A stretch of 64,000 nt of DNA from Candidatus Thioglobus perditus (GTDB taxonomy: Bacteria > Pseudomonadota > Gammaproteobacteria > PS1 > Pseudothioglobaceae), in assembly GCA_002909145.1 (NCBI GenBank), contig PNQY01000062.1, positions 62,001 to 126,000 of the forward strand, written 5' to 3'. The notes under the pieces were generated by a model that saw only the letters and a list, made by a program, of their open reading frames with translations, was not told where the DNA came from and did not search any database. This document shows positions 6,967 to 32,810 of the stretch, in pieces. A program made the translations under genes and the position numbers. Positions within the stretch are counted from its first letter, which is position 1; every line of letters begins with the position of its first letter.

Positions 6967-7695
6967 ATGGCTGAAAGACTACAAAAACTTATTGCAACTG
7001 CTGGCTATGGATCGCGCCGTTGGGCTGAAAGGCTAATAGAGCAAGGTCGTATTGAAGTTAATAATAAGACTGCTCAGATTGGTGATAAGTGTGAAATTAC
7101 TGACAAGGTAAAGATTGATGGTAGAAGCGTTGATCTTGAGCGCTACAAAGAGGAAGAGACCAAAGTTATTATTTTAAATAAGCAAGCTGGTGTTATTTGT
7201 TCAAATAAGGACGACGAGGGGCGCAAGAGTGTTTATAGTTTGCTGCCTAAAGAGTCGCGTTGGGTTATGGTAGGGCGCTTAGATCTTAATACTTCTGGTT
7301 TGTTGCTGTTTACCAACAATGGTGATTTGGCCAATAAGTTAATGCATCCAAGCTCAGAAATTGACCGAGAATATGCGGTTCGCGTGCTCGGTCAGGTTGA
7401 GAATGAGGATATAAAAAAACTAACTAAAGGTGTTGAGTTAGATGATGGTTTTGCTAAATTTAATCAAGTCACTATCGGCGGTGGAGAGGGCGCTAATCGT
7501 TGGTATAAGGTTGTACTTAAAGAAGGTAAAAAGCGTGAAGTTAGACGCTTATGGGAGGCTTTAGGTTTTAAAGTTTCACGTCTAATACGTATACGTTTTG
7601 GAGAAATTCGTCTACCAGAAAACCTTAAAGCTAACCAATATGACTATCTAAAACCTGGACAGGTAAAACTGCTTCTTAATTCAGTAAAATTATAA
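6967..7695 (+). CDS. rluB: 23S rRNA pseudouridine synthase RluB
   Basis: 242 residues. An S4 RNA-binding domain occupies the first 60 residues (LQKLIATAGYGSRRWAERL), then the RsuA/RluB-type catalytic domain with GRLDLNTSGLL, where the Asp near residue 105 is the catalytic nucleophile. The family modifies U2605 of 23S rRNA in E. coli. RsuA/RluF paralogues share the fold; the long S4 region and the GRLDLNTSG form favour RluB. It lacks the long basic C-terminal tail of the E. coli protein. Confidence 0.85.
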   Translation: MAERLQKLIATAGYGSRRWAERLIEQGRIEVNNKTAQIGDKCEITDKVKIDGRSVDLERYKEEETKVIILNKQAGVICSNKDDEGRKSVYSLLPKESRWVMVGRLDLNTSGLLLFTNNGDLANKLMHPSSEIDREYAVRVLGQVENEDIKKLTKGVELDDGFAKFNQVTIGGGEGANRWYKVVLKEGKKREVRRLWEALGFKVSRLIRIRFGEIRLPENLKANQYDYLKPGQVKLLLNSVKL

Positions 7696-26023: not shown

Positions 26024-27047
26024 TTTCTATCTCCCCTTGTAGAATTTCGTATCGCCAACCTTTTAAAAAGATTACTGAACGATCGCCACGAATAAAACTT
26101 AACAATGACTTGCCATTAGCAATAATTTTATCGTCTAGATTATACTTATTTGCAATTTTTTGTATCAGTTTTTGTAACTCTTTCTTTTGCATCTTTTCAG
26201 CTTTGGTTGGTATTTTGTTACTAATCATAACCTTTATAGACTCAAGGCTTTGATTGTTAGCAATAAACTTATTAAATGAGTCTTCTGCTTTCTTTGAGAG
26301 TTTTTCACTTCCAAGCACATAAGCAATTAATTTATCATCAGCCATTATCCATTTTCTAGGTTTATTTTTGCTTTTTGCCTGTTGCTCTCTATATGCTGCA
26401 AGTTGTGCTGCATAAGTATGGTATTTTTTTGCTAGGCGTGAAAAACCTTTGACTTTCTGCCAAGCATTATCAACAGGTGGGTTGTACAATTGCACATCTA
26501 GTAAATAGTTTGACTCTTCACTAATCCAATTTAGTTTGCCTTCTGATTCTAGCTGTTGCTCTAATTGAAAGTAATTTTTGATTAAATAACGCACATCATC
26601 AAGTGCATACTCTATAGCACCATCTGGCAATGGTCTTGTGGTCCAATCAAGTCTAGTGTAGGCTTTTTCTAGAAATACGTTTTGCAATGACTCGGTAAGT
26701 GCTTGATAAGAAATTTGACCGGGATAGTTAAGCAAACTAGCTGCAATTTGAGTGTCAAATAATTTCTTAGGCAGTTTATTTGATAAGTAATATAGAGCCT
26801 CAATATCTTGGCGGGCAGAATGTACAATCCATAAACATTCATCTTGATATAGTTTATCAAATAGTGGTGTTAAGTCATTAATTGCTAAAACATCTATGCA
26901 GTCGGTATTGCTTTTAGTTGCTATTTGTACCAAGCATAGAACCGGATAATAGGTACTGGTGCGCTTAAATTCAGTATCAATTGCTAGATGTGTTTCATTG
27001 CGTATCGAATGTATGAAATTCTCTAATTGCTTCTGTGTTTGTATCAT
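26013..27047 (-). CDS. rnd: Ribonuclease D
   Basis: 344 residues; 3'-5' exoribonuclease acting in tRNA 3' maturation. DEDD-type catalytic residues are seen in LAIDTEFKRTSTYYP (Asp and Glu), SARQDIEAL and the YALDDVRYL segment; one HRDC domain follows (from about 205). First gene of rnd-ppa-rsmD-coaD; divergent from ntrY with 86 bases between starts. Confidence 0.9.
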   Translation of the reverse strand: MIQTQKQLENFIHSIRNETHLAIDTEFKRTSTYYPVLCLVQIATKSNTDCIDVLAINDLTPLFDKLYQDECLWIVHSARQDIEALYYLSNKLPKKLFDTQIAASLLNYPGQISYQALTESLQNVFLEKAYTRLDWTTRPLPDGAIEYALDDVRYLIKNYFQLEQQLESEGKLNWISEESNYLLDVQLYNPPVDNAWQKVKGFSRLAKKYHTYAAQLAAYREQQAKSKNKPRKWIMADDKLIAYVLGSEKLSKKAEDSFNKFIANNQSLESIKVMISNKIPTKAEKMQKKELQKLIQKIANKYNLDDKIIANGKSLLSFIRGDRSVIFLKGWRYEILQGEIENAK

Positions 27048-27133
27048 TGTTGTATTTTATCAACAACTCACATAAACTCTTGATTTTTTATGAGATAATT
27101 CAGATAAAAAATATTAACTCATATTAGTATTCA

Positions 27134-29410
27134 ATGATTTTTGATCAAAGCCTTAATTTAAGAAAAACCCCGCCAATTTGGTTTTGGGTGACGGTTTTCT
27201 TGTTTTCCATTTCTGGCACATTCTATTTGGGTCTTAATCCAGATTTCATCGAGGATTGGTGGTGGCCTTTAGTTACTTATAACGTGATTATGGGGTTGCT
27301 GGCAGCTTTCTATATTTACTCCAGTGTAAGAAGTCTTAAGAAAAATACCAAAGCAGGAATCATAGGCTCAAGATTTACTTTATCATTTATCAAGATTATT
27401 CCAATATTGGCAATTGTCCCAGTACTGTCTTTTTATATGTTCTCTTTTCAGACCATTCAGAACAATGTAATTGATTCAGAAAAGGCATTTTCCTCATATA
27501 GTAAAAAATTTGTTAATCAAGTAGATGGCCTGTATCAAGGCGTGCAAGATGTGCGTGACGAGACTTATACTGTTCAAGCCAAAAGATTGTTAGAGCTCAT
27601 ATCTGCATACTCTAAGCATCAAGAAGGACTGGAAACATACAATAGCAATATGCTAGCTTTTATCGAAAACAGAGTAGATTTAGGTTGGGCTTGTAGAATT
27701 TCACTTTTCGATGAGAAGGATGCCCTAATTGCACAAACTAGCGAAGTTGACGTATGTAGTATTATTGAAGATCAGTATTTGCCAAGCAATCAGACATTAA
27801 TGATTAATGAAGATGAAAAAAGCAATACTATTCAGGTTAAGATGTCAGAGCGCTATTTACTTCGCGTACCAGTGAAAAAATATTTAGTAGTAGATGCTAT
27901 TTTTAAAACTGACCCTGGGTTGTTGGGTTTTTTGAATAATGTTAAAAGATTCAGCGATGCTACTAAAGGTATGAAGATTACTGTTAATACTTCTATTACA
28001 CAAAAACGCTTTTTAATTGATTTTTCCTCAACTATATTGTTAACAATTTTAAGTGTATTAATGATTGTTATGAGTATGTTAGAGCGTTTAATGAGACCGC
28101 TACATAACCTTTCATTAGCCACAAGTGAAATTGCACAAGGTAACTACGATGTGCAAATTTACAATAAAGATGAGAATCAAGACATACATAAGCTAATCAA
28201 GGGCTTTAATAATATGTCTGAACAGATAAAAGCCTCAAGAGAGGGTTTGGATACGCATAACCTTTATTTAGAAACCATTCTTAAATATTCATATGGCGTT
28301 ATTGCTCTTGATCAGCAAAGAAAAATAAAGCTGATTAATCCAGTAATTGGAAAAATGCTTTGCATTGACAATGAGAAAGAATTTATTGGTAAGTCGTGCA
28401 AAGATATTGCTAAAAAATATCCTAGCTTGCAGCCGTTGTTTAATATGACAGTGCAAAATTACAAAAGATATAAAAATGAGTGGAGCAAGGAGATTGAAGT
28501 TTCACTAGCAGATAGGCATATATTGTTGTCTTGTCAAGGAGCAGTGTTAGATATTGATGATAAAGCCTTAGGGTATGTAATTATTATCAAGGATATATCA
28601 CAACTTCATAGGGCGCAAAAGAAGGCAGCATGGGGTGAAGTTGCTATTCGTATGGCTCATGAAATTAAGAATCCACTAACACCTATACTATTATCCGCAC
28701 AACGCCTTAGAAATAGATTTATGGATAGTTTAAAAGACAAGGATTTAGAAGTAATAGATAAAACCACCAATATTATTATTGACCAAGTTCGATCAATGGA
28801 TACTATGGTTACAGCGTTTGCTGATTATGCTAACACCCCAAAAATTGAAAGAAAGCTTGTTGATCTAAACACTGTTATCAATCAGTCAATATCACTTTAT
28901 GATGCACAAAGCAATATAAGTATTAACTTTGATTTATCTGGTGATATTCCAAAGTTATTGTTAGATGCTAATAGTATTTCTAGAGTTTTAATTAATTTAG
29001 TAAAAAATGCCAGTGAATCAGTTGAAATTGAGCGTGATTTAAATGTAAATATTGCCACCCAGTATTTAGGCGACGAGGGTATAGTGCGCTTAACTATTGC
29101 TGATGATGGTGATGGGTTTGATAAAGGGGTGGTTGACAGGGTGTTTGAGCCTTATGTTACCACTAAGATTAAAGGTAGTGGATTAGGCATGGCAATCGTA
29201 CAGAATATTGTTGAGCAACATGATGGCAAGATTTATGCTGGAAATATTAAACCACATGGTGCTATTATTACTATTGAGTTTAGTTACAAAGATAAATCTA
29301 TGGATTTATCTGAATCTGAAAACAAACTAGACCAGGTTCTTGAATTAGAAAAAGTTGATGCAAGAATTTGGTCTAGTTTAGCTACAAAGATAAATAGAAA
29401 ACAGAGGTAG
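27134..29410 (+). CDS. ntrY: Sensor histidine kinase NtrY
   Basis: 758-residue inner-membrane sensor kinase. Layout: two or three N-terminal helices (to about 110), a large periplasmic region (about 112-290), another helix, HAMP (about 320-370), PAS (about 380-490), dimerisation box with the phosphorylated His in AHEIKNPLTP (about 510), and an ATPase domain with GLGMAIVQNIVEQHDG. This layout is the NtrY type, tied to nitrogen and redox control in proteobacteria. Two bases separate it from the response regulator gene. What it senses cannot be read from the sequence. Confidence 0.9.
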   Translation: MIFDQSLNLRKTPPIWFWVTVFLFSISGTFYLGLNPDFIEDWWWPLVTYNVIMGLLAAFYIYSSVRSLKKNTKAGIIGSRFTLSFIKIIPILAIVPVLSFYMFSFQTIQNNVIDSEKAFSSYSKKFVNQVDGLYQGVQDVRDETYTVQAKRLLELISAYSKHQEGLETYNSNMLAFIENRVDLGWACRISLFDEKDALIAQTSEVDVCSIIEDQYLPSNQTLMINEDEKSNTIQVKMSERYLLRVPVKKYLVVDAIFKTDPGLLGFLNNVKRFSDATKGMKITVNTSITQKRFLIDFSSTILLTILSVLMIVMSMLERLMRPLHNLSLATSEIAQGNYDVQIYNKDENQDIHKLIKGFNNMSEQIKASREGLDTHNLYLETILKYSYGVIALDQQRKIKLINPVIGKMLCIDNEKEFIGKSCKDIAKKYPSLQPLFNMTVQNYKRYKNEWSKEIEVSLADRHILLSCQGAVLDIDDKALGYVIIIKDISQLHRAQKKAAWGEVAIRMAHEIKNPLTPILLSAQRLRNRFMDSLKDKDLEVIDKTTNIIIDQVRSMDTMVTAFADYANTPKIERKLVDLNTVINQSISLYDAQSNISINFDLSGDIPKLLLDANSISRVLINLVKNASESVEIERDLNVNIATQYLGDEGIVRLTIADDGDGFDKGVVDRVFEPYVTTKIKGSGLGMAIVQNIVEQHDGKIYAGNIKPHGAIITIEFSYKDKSMDLSESENKLDQVLELEKVDARIWSSLATKINRKQR

Positions 29411-29412
29411 AT

Positions 29413-29988
29413 ATGGAAGATGCAGTATCAATTGGCAAAATTCTTATTATTGATGATGAGAGTATTAATGCTGAAACAATGAAAGACACCCTTGAAGATG
29501 TGAATTATGAGGTTGTGTTGGCTGCTAATGCTAACGAAGCTAAGGCAATTGCTAAAAGTCAAGCTTTTGATTTAATAATGATGGATGTTTGGATGCCGGG
29601 TCAAGATGGCATGTCTTTATTAGAAGAGTGGATTACTCAAGGTTTTTCTATGCCGGTAGTAATGATGTCTGGACATGCAGAACATAAAGACGTAGTTAAG
29701 GCTATTAAGCTTGGCGCAGTTGATTTTTTAAAGAAACCTCTGCATGATATTTTGCCATTGGTGCGTAGAATATTGTCTGAACAAACATTAGCAATAGTAG
29801 ATGAAAAAATTAGTGGTATTGATTTTAATGTGCCACTTAAAACAGCAAGAAATGTATTTGAAAGACAATATTTCAATCATCATTTAAATGAAAATAATCA
29901 TAATATTGCCAAAGTTGCAGCTCTTGCTGGATTGGAGCGTACAACTTTATATCGTAAATTAAAAGATTTGGGAATAGATAAAAAATGA
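29413..29988 (+). CDS. NtrX-like response regulator lacking the AAA+ domain
   Basis: 191 residues: receiver domain (about 8-125) with acidic pair DD at 14-15, phospho-acceptor Asp58 in MMDVWMPGQDG and the conserved Lys in FLKKP (about 109), then directly a Fis-type helix-turn-helix (about 148-190, HNIAKVAALAGLERTTLYRKLKDLGI). The middle sigma-54-activating ATPase domain of normal NtrX (about 230 residues) is absent with no sign of a broken frame. The position after ntrY and the NtrX-like DVWMPG and HTH sequences point to NtrX ancestry; the layout resembles RegA/ActR. It can therefore bind DNA but should not activate sigma-54 polymerase. Overlaps trkA by four bases. Confidence 0.85.
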   Translation: MEDAVSIGKILIIDDESINAETMKDTLEDVNYEVVLAANANEAKAIAKSQAFDLIMMDVWMPGQDGMSLLEEWITQGFSMPVVMMSGHAEHKDVVKAIKLGAVDFLKKPLHDILPLVRRILSEQTLAIVDEKISGIDFNVPLKTARNVFERQYFNHHLNENNHNIAKVAALAGLERTTLYRKLKDLGIDKK

Positions 29989-31355
29989 AAATCTTAATTT
30001 TAGGTGCTGGGCAGGTTGGTTCTACTTTGGCAAAATACTTAAGTTCTGATAATGAAAATAACATAACTGTTATTGATAAAGACGATTCTAATTTATTAGC
30101 ATTGCAACGTCATTTAGACATTAAGACCATTAGTGGTCATGCTTCATATCCAAATATTTTAGAAGATGCAGGTATTAAAAATACGGATATGCTTATTGCA
30201 GTTACCAACTCCGATGAGAGTAATATGTTGGCTTGTCAAATGGCACACACCTTGTACCAAGTTGATAAGAAAGTAGCGCGAGTGCGTACTGCAGAATATT
30301 TACACAGAAAAGAGCTGTTCTCAGATGATGCAATTCCAATTGATTTTGTTATTACTCCAGAAGGGCTTGTTACTAATTATATAAAAAGAGTGGTTGAGGA
30401 GCCCGGAGCTGAACAGGTTTTTGAGTTTGAAAACGGCTTGGTGCAGTTGGTAGAAACTAGAGCATATGCCGGAACTCCAATTGTTGGGCATCCTATTAAA
30501 GACTTGCATGAGCACTTGCCAAAGACTCGAATGCGTATTGTTAGTTTGTATAGAAATGGTAGGGCTATCCCAGCATACGGGGATACAGTGATTCGTGATG
30601 GTGACCGCGTTTATTTTGTTACTAAAAAAGAAAGTGTTTCTAAGGTTATTAAGGAGTTTAGGCGTCTAGATAAAGTTTATAGAAATATCATAATTGCCGG
30701 TGGTGGGCGTATTGGCCTTGATTTGGCTAAGTTTTTAGAGAAAAATCATCGAGTTAGAATAATCGAGCTAAATAAAAAACGTGTTGTTGAAATTGCTGAT
30801 CAGCTTGAAGATGCTTTAGTGTTGTGTGGTAATGCATCCGATGAGGAGTTATTGTTAGAAGAGGGTATTGAAAATACAGATTTATTCTTGGCGCTTACAG
30901 ATTCTGATGAAATCAATGTTATTGTATCAATTTTAGCCAAACGCTTAGGCGCACACAAAACCGTTGCTTTAGTTAAGCGCAATGTTTATGAAGATCTTGC
31001 CGAGCAGAGTGAAGATGTAGATATGGTGGTTTCTCCTGACCAAATTACTGCTAGTGGTATTTTGGCGCATATTCGTAAAGGTGATACTATGATGGTGCAT
31101 TCATTGCGTCAAGGTAAATCTGAGGCAATTGAAATAATTGTGCATGGTGATAGAGAGCACTCAGATGTGGTGGGCAGAACCGTAGAAGAAATCAACCTAC
31201 CAACTGGAGTTGTGGTTGGCTCAGTGGTTAGAAACAATGAAGTTATTATGGGGTCACGTACACTTGTTATAGAAGAGGGCGACCATGTATTGTTAGTACT
31301 TACAGATGTAGATAGAATTCATACAGTTGAGGCATTGTTTGCCGAAAATGAGTAA
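29985..31355 (+). CDS. trkA: Trk potassium uptake regulatory protein TrkA
   Basis: 456 residues; cytoplasmic NAD-binding ring subunit that gates TrkH. Two tandem RCK units are visible, each with a Rossmann glycine motif (ILGAGQVGSTLAKYL at 4-18; IIAGGGRIGLDLAKFL near 236) and a C-terminal TrkA_C part. Normal full length. Start overlaps the response regulator stop; six bases separate it from trkH. Confidence 0.95.
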   Translation: MKILILGAGQVGSTLAKYLSSDNENNITVIDKDDSNLLALQRHLDIKTISGHASYPNILEDAGIKNTDMLIAVTNSDESNMLACQMAHTLYQVDKKVARVRTAEYLHRKELFSDDAIPIDFVITPEGLVTNYIKRVVEEPGAEQVFEFENGLVQLVETRAYAGTPIVGHPIKDLHEHLPKTRMRIVSLYRNGRAIPAYGDTVIRDGDRVYFVTKKESVSKVIKEFRRLDKVYRNIIIAGGGRIGLDLAKFLEKNHRVRIIELNKKRVVEIADQLEDALVLCGNASDEELLLEEGIENTDLFLALTDSDEINVIVSILAKRLGAHKTVALVKRNVYEDLAEQSEDVDMVVSPDQITASGILAHIRKGDTMMVHSLRQGKSEAIEIIVHGDREHSDVVGRTVEEINLPTGVVVGSVVRNNEVIMGSRTLVIEEGDHVLLVLTDVDRIHTVEALFAENE

Positions 31356-31361
31356 ATAATT

Positions 31362-32810
31362 ATGCAGTTTAGTATAGTATTCAAAACTATTGGATTATTG
31401 TTAATGGTGTTTAGCTTGACGCAATTACCGCCAGTAATTGTTGATTTTATTTATGCTCAAAATGAATACAAATCTTTTGTTACAGCATTTACTCTTACTT
31501 TAATTAGCGGATTCATTTTATGGGTTCCCTTTAGAAAATCAAAAAAAGACTTTAGAATTCGCGAAGGGGTTTTAGTTGTTGTTAGTTTTTGGTTTGTATT
31601 ATCAATATTTGCTACCACGCCGTTTTTACTTTCTACATCACTTAGTATGTCGTTTAGTGATGCATTTTTTGAGTCAATGTCAGGTCTTACTACTACTGGT
31701 GCAACAGTATTGTCTGGACTAGATGATCTACCTAAGGCGATTTTATATTATCGTCAACAGCTGCAGTGGCTTGGGGGAATGGGTATTATTGTTTTGGCTG
31801 TTGCTATTTTGCCAATGCTTGGAGTTGGTGGTATGGAGCTTTACCATGCTGAATCTAGTGGTATATCTAAAGATAGATTAACTCCAAAGCTTACCCAGAC
31901 TGCAAAAGCGCTATGGAAGATATATATCAGCTTTACTATAATCTGTGCTATTGGTTATTATCTCGCCGGAATGGATTGGTTTGATGCTATTGGCCATAGT
32001 TACTCTACTGTTGCTATCGGGGGTTTTTCTACCCATGATGCATCAATTGGCTATTTTGACTCTGTAGCAATTGAATCGGTGGCAATTATATTTATGCTTC
32101 TTGCTGGTATTAATTTTTCCCTGCATTTTTTTGTATGGCAAAAGAAGAACGTCTTTACTTATACTCAAGATTCAGAGTTTAAAGCTTATATATTTGTTTT
32201 AATTGCATCTATAGCCCTGGTTTCTATTTATTTGTTTAATAGTGGATACTATCAAAGTGCAGACGATGCATTTAGATTTGGAATTTTTCAAAGCGTATCA
32301 ATAGCAACAACTACTGGATTTGCATCTACTAATTTCTCGTTGTGGCCATTAATATTGCCAGTGCTTTTGATTTTTTCTAGTTTTGTTGGTGCTTGTGCTG
32401 GGTCTACTGGTGGTGGCATTAAGGTGGTTAGAATGTTACTGATGTTTAAATTAGCAATGAAGGAAATTAAAAAGTTTATTCATCCTAATGCTCAGATTAA
32501 CATTAAACTTAATCAAAAAAGTGTGTCTGAGGCCGTATTAGTTTCAGTTTGGGGCTTCTTTTCTTTGTATGTGGTAGCGTTCGTTATTATTATGATTGCA
32601 TTAATGTTTACTGGGCTTGATCAAGTAACTGCATTTTCTGCAACAGCTGCCTCAATTAATAATCTTGGCCCAGGTCTGGGAGATGTTGCGGCTAATTATG
32701 GCGGCATTAGCGATGCATCAAAGTGGACTTTAAGCTTCTCGATGTTATTAGGTCGCTTAGAAATATTAACGCTAATGGTTTTGTTGCATAAGGCCTTTTG
32801 GCGTTTTTAA
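31362..32810 (+). CDS. trkH: Trk potassium transporter TrkH
   Basis: 482-residue K+ channel-like inner-membrane protein with about ten helices and four selectivity-filter loops, seen as MSGLTTTGATV, VAIGGFSTHD, TTTGFASTNF and AASINNLGPG. GACAGSTGGGIKVVR after the third loop is typical. Works with TrkA for potassium uptake. Ends 11 bases from the convergent dinG. Confidence 0.95.
   Translation: MQFSIVFKTIGLLLMVFSLTQLPPVIVDFIYAQNEYKSFVTAFTLTLISGFILWVPFRKSKKDFRIREGVLVVVSFWFVLSIFATTPFLLSTSLSMSFSDAFFESMSGLTTTGATVLSGLDDLPKAILYYRQQLQWLGGMGIIVLAVAILPMLGVGGMELYHAESSGISKDRLTPKLTQTAKALWKIYISFTIICAIGYYLAGMDWFDAIGHSYSTVAIGGFSTHDASIGYFDSVAIESVAIIFMLLAGINFSLHFFVWQKKNVFTYTQDSEFKAYIFVLIASIALVSIYLFNSGYYQSADDAFRFGIFQSVSIATTTGFASTNFSLWPLILPVLLIFSSFVGACAGSTGGGIKVVRMLLMFKLAMKEIKKFIHPNAQINIKLNQKSVSEAVLVSVWGFFSLYVVAFVIIMIALMFTGLDQVTAFSATAASINNLGPGLGDVAANYGGISDASKWTLSFSMLLGRLEILTLMVLLHKAFWRF

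Follow-up and report, generated by a model that had tools for sequence, protein, structure and literature searches.

The ntrX gene of the SUP05 bacterium Candidatus Thioglobus perditus is best explained, taken as a whole, as an ntrX orthologue that has been cut down to its receiver and helix-turn-helix (HTH) domains, and whose product would act as a phosphorylation-dependent regulator of sigma-70 promoters. We put the probability of this reading at roughly 80%. Part of the same explanation, and held with the same confidence, is that the AAA+ domain was removed by a clean, in-frame deletion in the Thioglobaceae ancestor. The gene was analyzed within a 64,000-nucleotide stretch of contig PNQY01000062.1 (hereafter the window), and the coordinates of the features discussed below are collected in Table 1.

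Table 1. Features of the ntrYX-trkAH region, in positions of the window; the regulatory sites upstream of ntrY are candidates.
Feature	Position	Strand	Remarks
Palindrome TTGTTG-N8-CAACAA, candidate operator upstream of ntrY	27047..27066		Abuts the start codon of the divergent rnd
TATGAGATAAT, extended -10 element of putative sigma-70-type ntrY promoter	27089..27099	+	Conserved in upstream regions
ntrY, partner histidine kinase	27134..29410	+	HAMP, HisKA with HEIKN, HATPase; conserved neighbor
ntrX, short form	29413..29988	+	191-residue ORF; receiver and Fis-type HTH, no AAA+ domain
Receiver domain, residues 10-111, phospho-acceptor D58	29440..29745	+	PF00072; invariant residues
Fis-type HTH, residues 149-185, recognition helix ERTTLYRKL	29857..29967	+	PF02954; NtrX-type by profile; predicted three-helix fold
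trkA, K+ transport regulator	29985..31355	+	4-base overlap with ntrX
trkH, K+ uptake channel	31362..32810	+	Downstream of trkA

The 191-residue product gives only two Pfam matches, Response_reg (95 bits, residues 10-111) and the Fis-type HTH_8 (32 bits, residues 149-185), with no Pfam match to an AAA+ model, and the two domains are joined by a short linker alone. The residues associated with phosphorylation, namely D14 and D15 of the acidic pocket, the acceptor D58, S86, and K108, are all present and are invariant among 20 relatives. An AlphaFold2 model with a mean pLDDT of 82 predicts a receiver with five strands, a long helix, and an HTH of three helices, and the pLDDT falls below 50 for linker residues 126-134. 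The gene starts two bases after the end of ntrY, overlaps the beginning of trkA, and is followed by the trkA-trkH pair. The NtrY encoded in the window comprises 758 residues, compared with about 690-726 in most complete relatives, the extra length being apparently C-terminal, beyond the kinase domain.

The short form is conserved throughout the family. An intact short ntrX is found in 34 of the 36 Thioglobaceae genomes searched; the copy in G018 is cut at a contig end, and none was found in G005, which is 86% complete. Among 57 named loci from SUP05, Ruthia, Vesicomyosocius, and Bathymodiolus symbionts (a 58th locus of this search, L097, holds an unrelated receiver and is not counted among the 57), the ORF measures 184-231 residues in 56, the exception, L095, being cut by its contig. 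At these loci trkA adjoins ntrX in every case and trkH is present in 56 (L047 ends before it), and ntrY lies upstream in 55, the sequences of L082 and L095 beginning at a contig end. Because the gene is intact across the family, it is neither an assembly artefact nor a sequencing accident. The original prediction, according to which nothing but a receiver and a Fis-type HTH is encoded after ntrY, with the AAA+ domain absent, is thus borne out both by the Pfam matches and by family-wide conservation.

The identity of the two domains was judged from profiles built from 42 long NtrX proteins of the class, 15 long NtrX proteins of Burkholderiales-type genomes, eight RegA proteins, and six other NtrC-family proteins. 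The class sample follows GTDB and takes in the former betaproteobacteria, and "Burkholderiales-type" denotes the order of genome G166, presumably Burkholderiales. When 22 Thioglobaceae sequences were scored, their receivers reached 107-121 bits with the class NtrX profile versus 55-72 bits with the RegA profile, and their HTHs reached 74-92 versus 13-30 bits. The margin in favor of class NtrX is thus at least 43 bits for the receiver and at least 57 bits for the HTH in all 22 sequences, and both domains are also NtrX-type when set against the other NtrC-family proteins (22/22). Matches to whole proteins agree: the best NCBIfam match of the product is the NtrX model, covered in two stretches with 112 bits (the full-length cut-off is 600), and the closest solved structure is Brucella NtrX, again matched in two stretches. 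The neighboring kinase, which has the HAMP, HisKA, and HATPase domains of the NtrY type, scores 63 bits with the RegB model NF033792, for which the cut-off is 350. Judged by their sequence profiles, both domains are those of NtrX and not of RegA/ActR. The protein is accordingly NtrX-like, as originally proposed, and the suggested convergence with RegA/ActR also holds, in that the likeness lies in the architecture only.

The properties of the lost domain can be gauged from full-length relatives. The search around NtrY in the class gave 80 loci, 70 with an adjacent NtrX and four more with NtrX in fused or other frames; of the rest, three stop at a contig end and three have NtrY without NtrX. From 38 further loci came 31 long NtrX proteins (some of them truncated at the end of the retrieved sequence), two short ones, and five cases with none, bringing the full-length NtrX proteins to 105 (74 + 31). 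NtrY-type kinases that are not directly followed by NtrX occur in other genomes of the class (L110, L149, L160, L227, and L229). Neither GAFTGA nor a close variant is found in any of the 105 full-length NtrX proteins adjoining NtrY across the class, and GAFTGA is likewise missing from all 15 long Burkholderiales-type NtrX proteins; the motif or a close variant is present in five of six comparison proteins. The stretch from LFG to GGTL, where measurable, spans 23 residues in 51 of 65 long NtrX proteins versus 28 in the three comparison activators. The P-loop (pattern G..G.GK) is kept in 75 of the 105 long class proteins and in one of the 15 Burkholderiales-type proteins. With the Pfam sigma-54 domain, four of the long class NtrX proteins score 151-186 bits, compared with 55 bits for one from the Burkholderiales-type genomes and 222 bits for two true activators of rpoN-bearing SUP05 genomes. 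Lack of GAFTGA has been described for Caulobacter NtrX (PMC10274813) and is given in a table for NtrX of the gammaproteobacterium Thioalkalivibrio thiocyanoxidans (PMC5744179). Because the full-length NtrX proteins of the class are uniformly without GAFTGA, the deleted AAA+ domain was probably no sigma-54 activator, and, to judge from its sequence relatives, its contact with sigma-54 had probably been lost before the deletion. The prediction that the short regulator cannot drive sigma-54 polymerase is supported, as the product has no AAA+ domain, but its implication that a sigma-54 pathway was redirected by the deletion finds no support in these 105 relatives.

Three other explanations have to be weighed against a truncated NtrX orthologue. 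One holds that the gene encodes a regulator of the RegA/ActR/PrrA family that occupies the place of NtrX in the operon. The architecture and size are indeed the same as those of RegA references (L232-L241), and a reduced, 40-row tree places the long Thioglobaceae branch next to the RegA outgroup, with an unstarred support of 73. In a 99-row tree, however, the 22 Thioglobaceae sequences form one clade (99) beside long NtrX. Both trees omit two of the ten RegA loci (L233 and L240), and the smaller one also omits further long-branch rows. The tree with NtrX and RegA that had been proposed as a check therefore puts the protein on the NtrX side in the larger set and not in the reduced one; the trees alone, which leave the placement unsettled, are less decisive, and it is the profile scores that carry the identity. 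They favor class NtrX for both domains in all 22 sequences, and on these scores a RegA/ActR identity is ruled out. The RegA model NF033791 also gives no match above its cut-off in the organism's own genome, where its best match is another gene (the cut-off was reached in none of the 23 genomes searched), and the recognition helix ERTTLYRKL resembles ERTHLYRKL of NtrX and not HRRTLQRKL of RegA, all of which makes the RegA reading extremely improbable. It is also quite unlikely, in our estimate, that the Thioglobaceae had no deletion of their own and instead obtained their short NtrX, by inheritance or transfer, from the AAA+-less PlrR-type NtrX of betaproteobacteria. Betaproteobacterial NtrX without the AAA+ domain has already been published (PMC13001219, which cites Bonato 2016), and a review distinguishes four NtrX classes (PMC12697260). 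An approximately unbiased (AU) test on the 40-row set does not reject a single clade of Thioglobaceae and Burkholderiales-type short NtrX (p 0.513), which, together with the long branch beside the RegA outgroup, makes a single shared deletion possible. Against such an origin, the KP motif and the HTH are separated by a linker of 32-38 residues in 22/22 Thioglobaceae proteins versus 50-100 in 9/9 Burkholderiales-type short forms, the Thioglobaceae domains score higher with the class than with the Burkholderiales-type NtrX profile (receiver 22/22, HTH 21/22), and in the 99-row tree the Burkholderiales-type short forms are intermixed with their own full-length relatives. The pair rsmB and plrP (DUF4390) was not found directly upstream of the kinase gene in the window, where a divergent rnd is located instead, as at the majority of the 57 named loci. 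On this sequence evidence, the AAA+ domain was probably lost in the Thioglobaceae separately from the betaproteobacterial loss. The short form is itself a minority among Burkholderiales-type genomes, accounting for 10 of the 45 with a match, and the published general statement on betaproteobacterial AAA+-less NtrX therefore looks too broad.

The third explanation, raised as a possibility in the original prediction, is that NtrX dropped its AAA+ domain because the lineage had dropped sigma-54, so that a sigma-54 pathway became a sigma-70 one. The search for rpoN in the organism's own genome, which had been proposed as a check, finds none by either PF04552 or PF04963. A convincing PF04552 match is present in 10 of 60 Thioglobaceae genomes, leaving 50 without; the match in G063 is fragmented and contains a stop. 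The few rpoN genes that do occur in the family lie in local cassettes with an activator of their own (L219, L220, and L223; L221 and L222), one type combining a histidine kinase with a GSFTGA regulator and the other combining uptake hydrogenase genes with a GAFTGA regulator. For the Bathymodiolus-symbiont hydrogenase cluster, rpoN has been reported, but it is called a rubredoxin gene (PMC9789115). The organism's own genome also encodes a DctD-like response regulator of 435 residues that adjoins a histidine kinase (L001, on contig C4 of G000 at about 8.6-10.0 kb). The protein has kept its length, but its AAA+ region has lost a proper P-loop and GAFTGA, so that by its sequence it looks like a sigma-54 activator decaying in place, as expected after loss of sigma-54; similar decayed proteins are encoded in G030, G061, G387, and G035 (L212-L215). 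Since most genomes are without rpoN and this AAA+ region has decayed, a local link to sigma-54 loss within the Thioglobaceae is possible. As a cause of the deletion, however, sigma-54 loss is unlikely. Besides the absence of GAFTGA from all 105 full-length NtrX proteins, the two losses are uncoupled in both directions. Short NtrX occurs together with rpoN in G011, G022, and G027, which are the three of the ten rpoN-bearing family genomes covered by the NtrX search, and rpoN is kept in 10 of the 11 Burkholderiales-type genomes with short NtrX (including G282; the exception is G431). Conversely, G099, G146, G238, and G367, which are 93-99% complete but are drafts in which the PF04552 and PF04963 searches could have missed rpoN, have no rpoN and keep an NtrX of 458-495 residues, and the Burkholderiales-type genome G440 has a long NtrX frame and no rpoN. 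Because the losses occur separately, the rpoN searches of family, class, and Burkholderiales-type genomes leave sigma-54 loss unsupported as the cause. We accordingly retain a truncated NtrX orthologue as the preferred reading, and consider the chances about even that NtrX as a whole is a lineage of sigma-54 activators that abandoned sigma-54 ahead of any AAA+ loss: GAFTGA would have disappeared in a common ancestor, the ATP site would next have decayed in the Burkholderiales-type proteins, and the AAA+ domain would have been deleted at least twice, once in SUP05 and one or more times in betaproteobacteria.

Compared with known systems, the SUP05 protein shares the NtrX-type receiver, the Fis-type HTH, and the ntrY neighbor with full-length NtrX of Brucella, Caulobacter, and gammaproteobacteria. 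These proteins are also without GAFTGA, but have the central AAA+ domain that the SUP05 form lacks. Sigma-54 activators (bacterial enhancer-binding proteins) have an AAA+ domain with GAFTGA, and the SUP05 ntrX product has neither. RegA, ActR, PrrA, and RoxR are the same in architecture and size, but differ in their domain sequences and in having RegB as the partner instead of NtrY; they are presumed to bind at sigma-70 promoters in a phosphorylation-dependent manner. Defined by its AAA+ domain, NtrX comprises the alphaproteobacterial and most gammaproteobacterial forms and not the SUP05 form, which matches the AAA+-less proteins that go by the name of NtrX in betaproteobacteria (PMC13001219). 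Like the SUP05 form, Herbaspirillum NtrX and Bordetella PlrR consist of a receiver and an HTH only and have an NtrY-type partner kinase, and in the Bordetella PlrR operon trkA-trkH follow, as in SUP05 (PMC13001219). The betaproteobacterial proteins differ in the longer linker of the Burkholderiales-type sample, in having rsmB and plrP upstream in place of the divergent rnd, and in belonging to another branch by the domain profiles. The NtrC proteins of Rhodobacter capsulatus and Caulobacter are NtrC-family regulators that act independently of sigma-54 at sigma-70 promoters (PMC10274813); they have lost the sigma-54-contacting loop but kept the AAA+ domain, which in SUP05 is gone altogether.

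We propose that, as in response regulators in general, NtrY would phosphorylate D58 of the short NtrX, and that the phosphorylated protein would dimerize and then bind palindromic DNA through its unchanged NtrX HTH. It would thereby regulate ordinary sigma-70 promoters, as either an activator or a repressor, and its own ntrY operon is probably among the targets. Of the original proposal that the pathway acts through ordinary promoters or by repression, the part that stands is that sigma-54 cannot be driven; the sigma-70 mode itself is one that we infer.

A candidate operator for such regulation lies upstream of ntrY. Of the 58 upstream regions (57 named loci and the window), 48 could be used, the others beginning too near a contig end. 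The exact arms TTGTTG-N8-CAACAA occur in 38 of the 48, and the extended -10 element TATGNGATAAT in all 48; in 34 of the 38, the palindrome and GATAAT lie 27 bases apart. A simple scan for a -35/-10 pair at the ntrY promoter found none, and we estimate that the palindrome would be centered near -49, a usual position for an activator. The exact arms are absent from all 80 class loci and occur twice in the organism's own genome; as the sole second site (window 7300-7319) falls inside a rluB-like coding sequence, the genome offers no further target of this kind. The palindrome may instead belong to rnd, because it abuts that gene and because several of the 10 regions without exact arms come from lines in which rnd itself is absent, displaced, or decayed. 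On the opposite strand, the palindrome has TAAAAT at its center, six bases ahead of the start codon of rnd, and it may thus double as a -10 element for an rnd transcript without a leader. The published alphaproteobacterial NtrX site is CAAN3-5TTG (PMC9223101), which the candidate palindrome does not resemble.

A literature search that covered titles, the beginnings of abstracts, and few subscription papers returned no report of a short NtrX in SUP05. The SUP05 short NtrX has an architecture that is already known, here in a new lineage, and it carries an established trend one step further. The new points are that full-length NtrX lacks GAFTGA throughout the class and that AAA+ and rpoN losses are uncoupled in both directions. 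If NtrX as a whole did leave sigma-54 before losing its AAA+ domain, the family would offer a stepwise, traceable turning of an enhancer-binding protein into a sigma-70 regulator, with the palindrome and the extended -10 element as its first operator. NtrX is usually annotated as a sigma-54-dependent regulator, and given the class-wide absence of GAFTGA, this dependence should not be assumed from the annotation. In low-oxygen seas and in vent symbioses, SUP05 bacteria are important as chemoautotrophs, and tying their NtrYX system to ordinary promoters would narrow the search for the genes that it controls.
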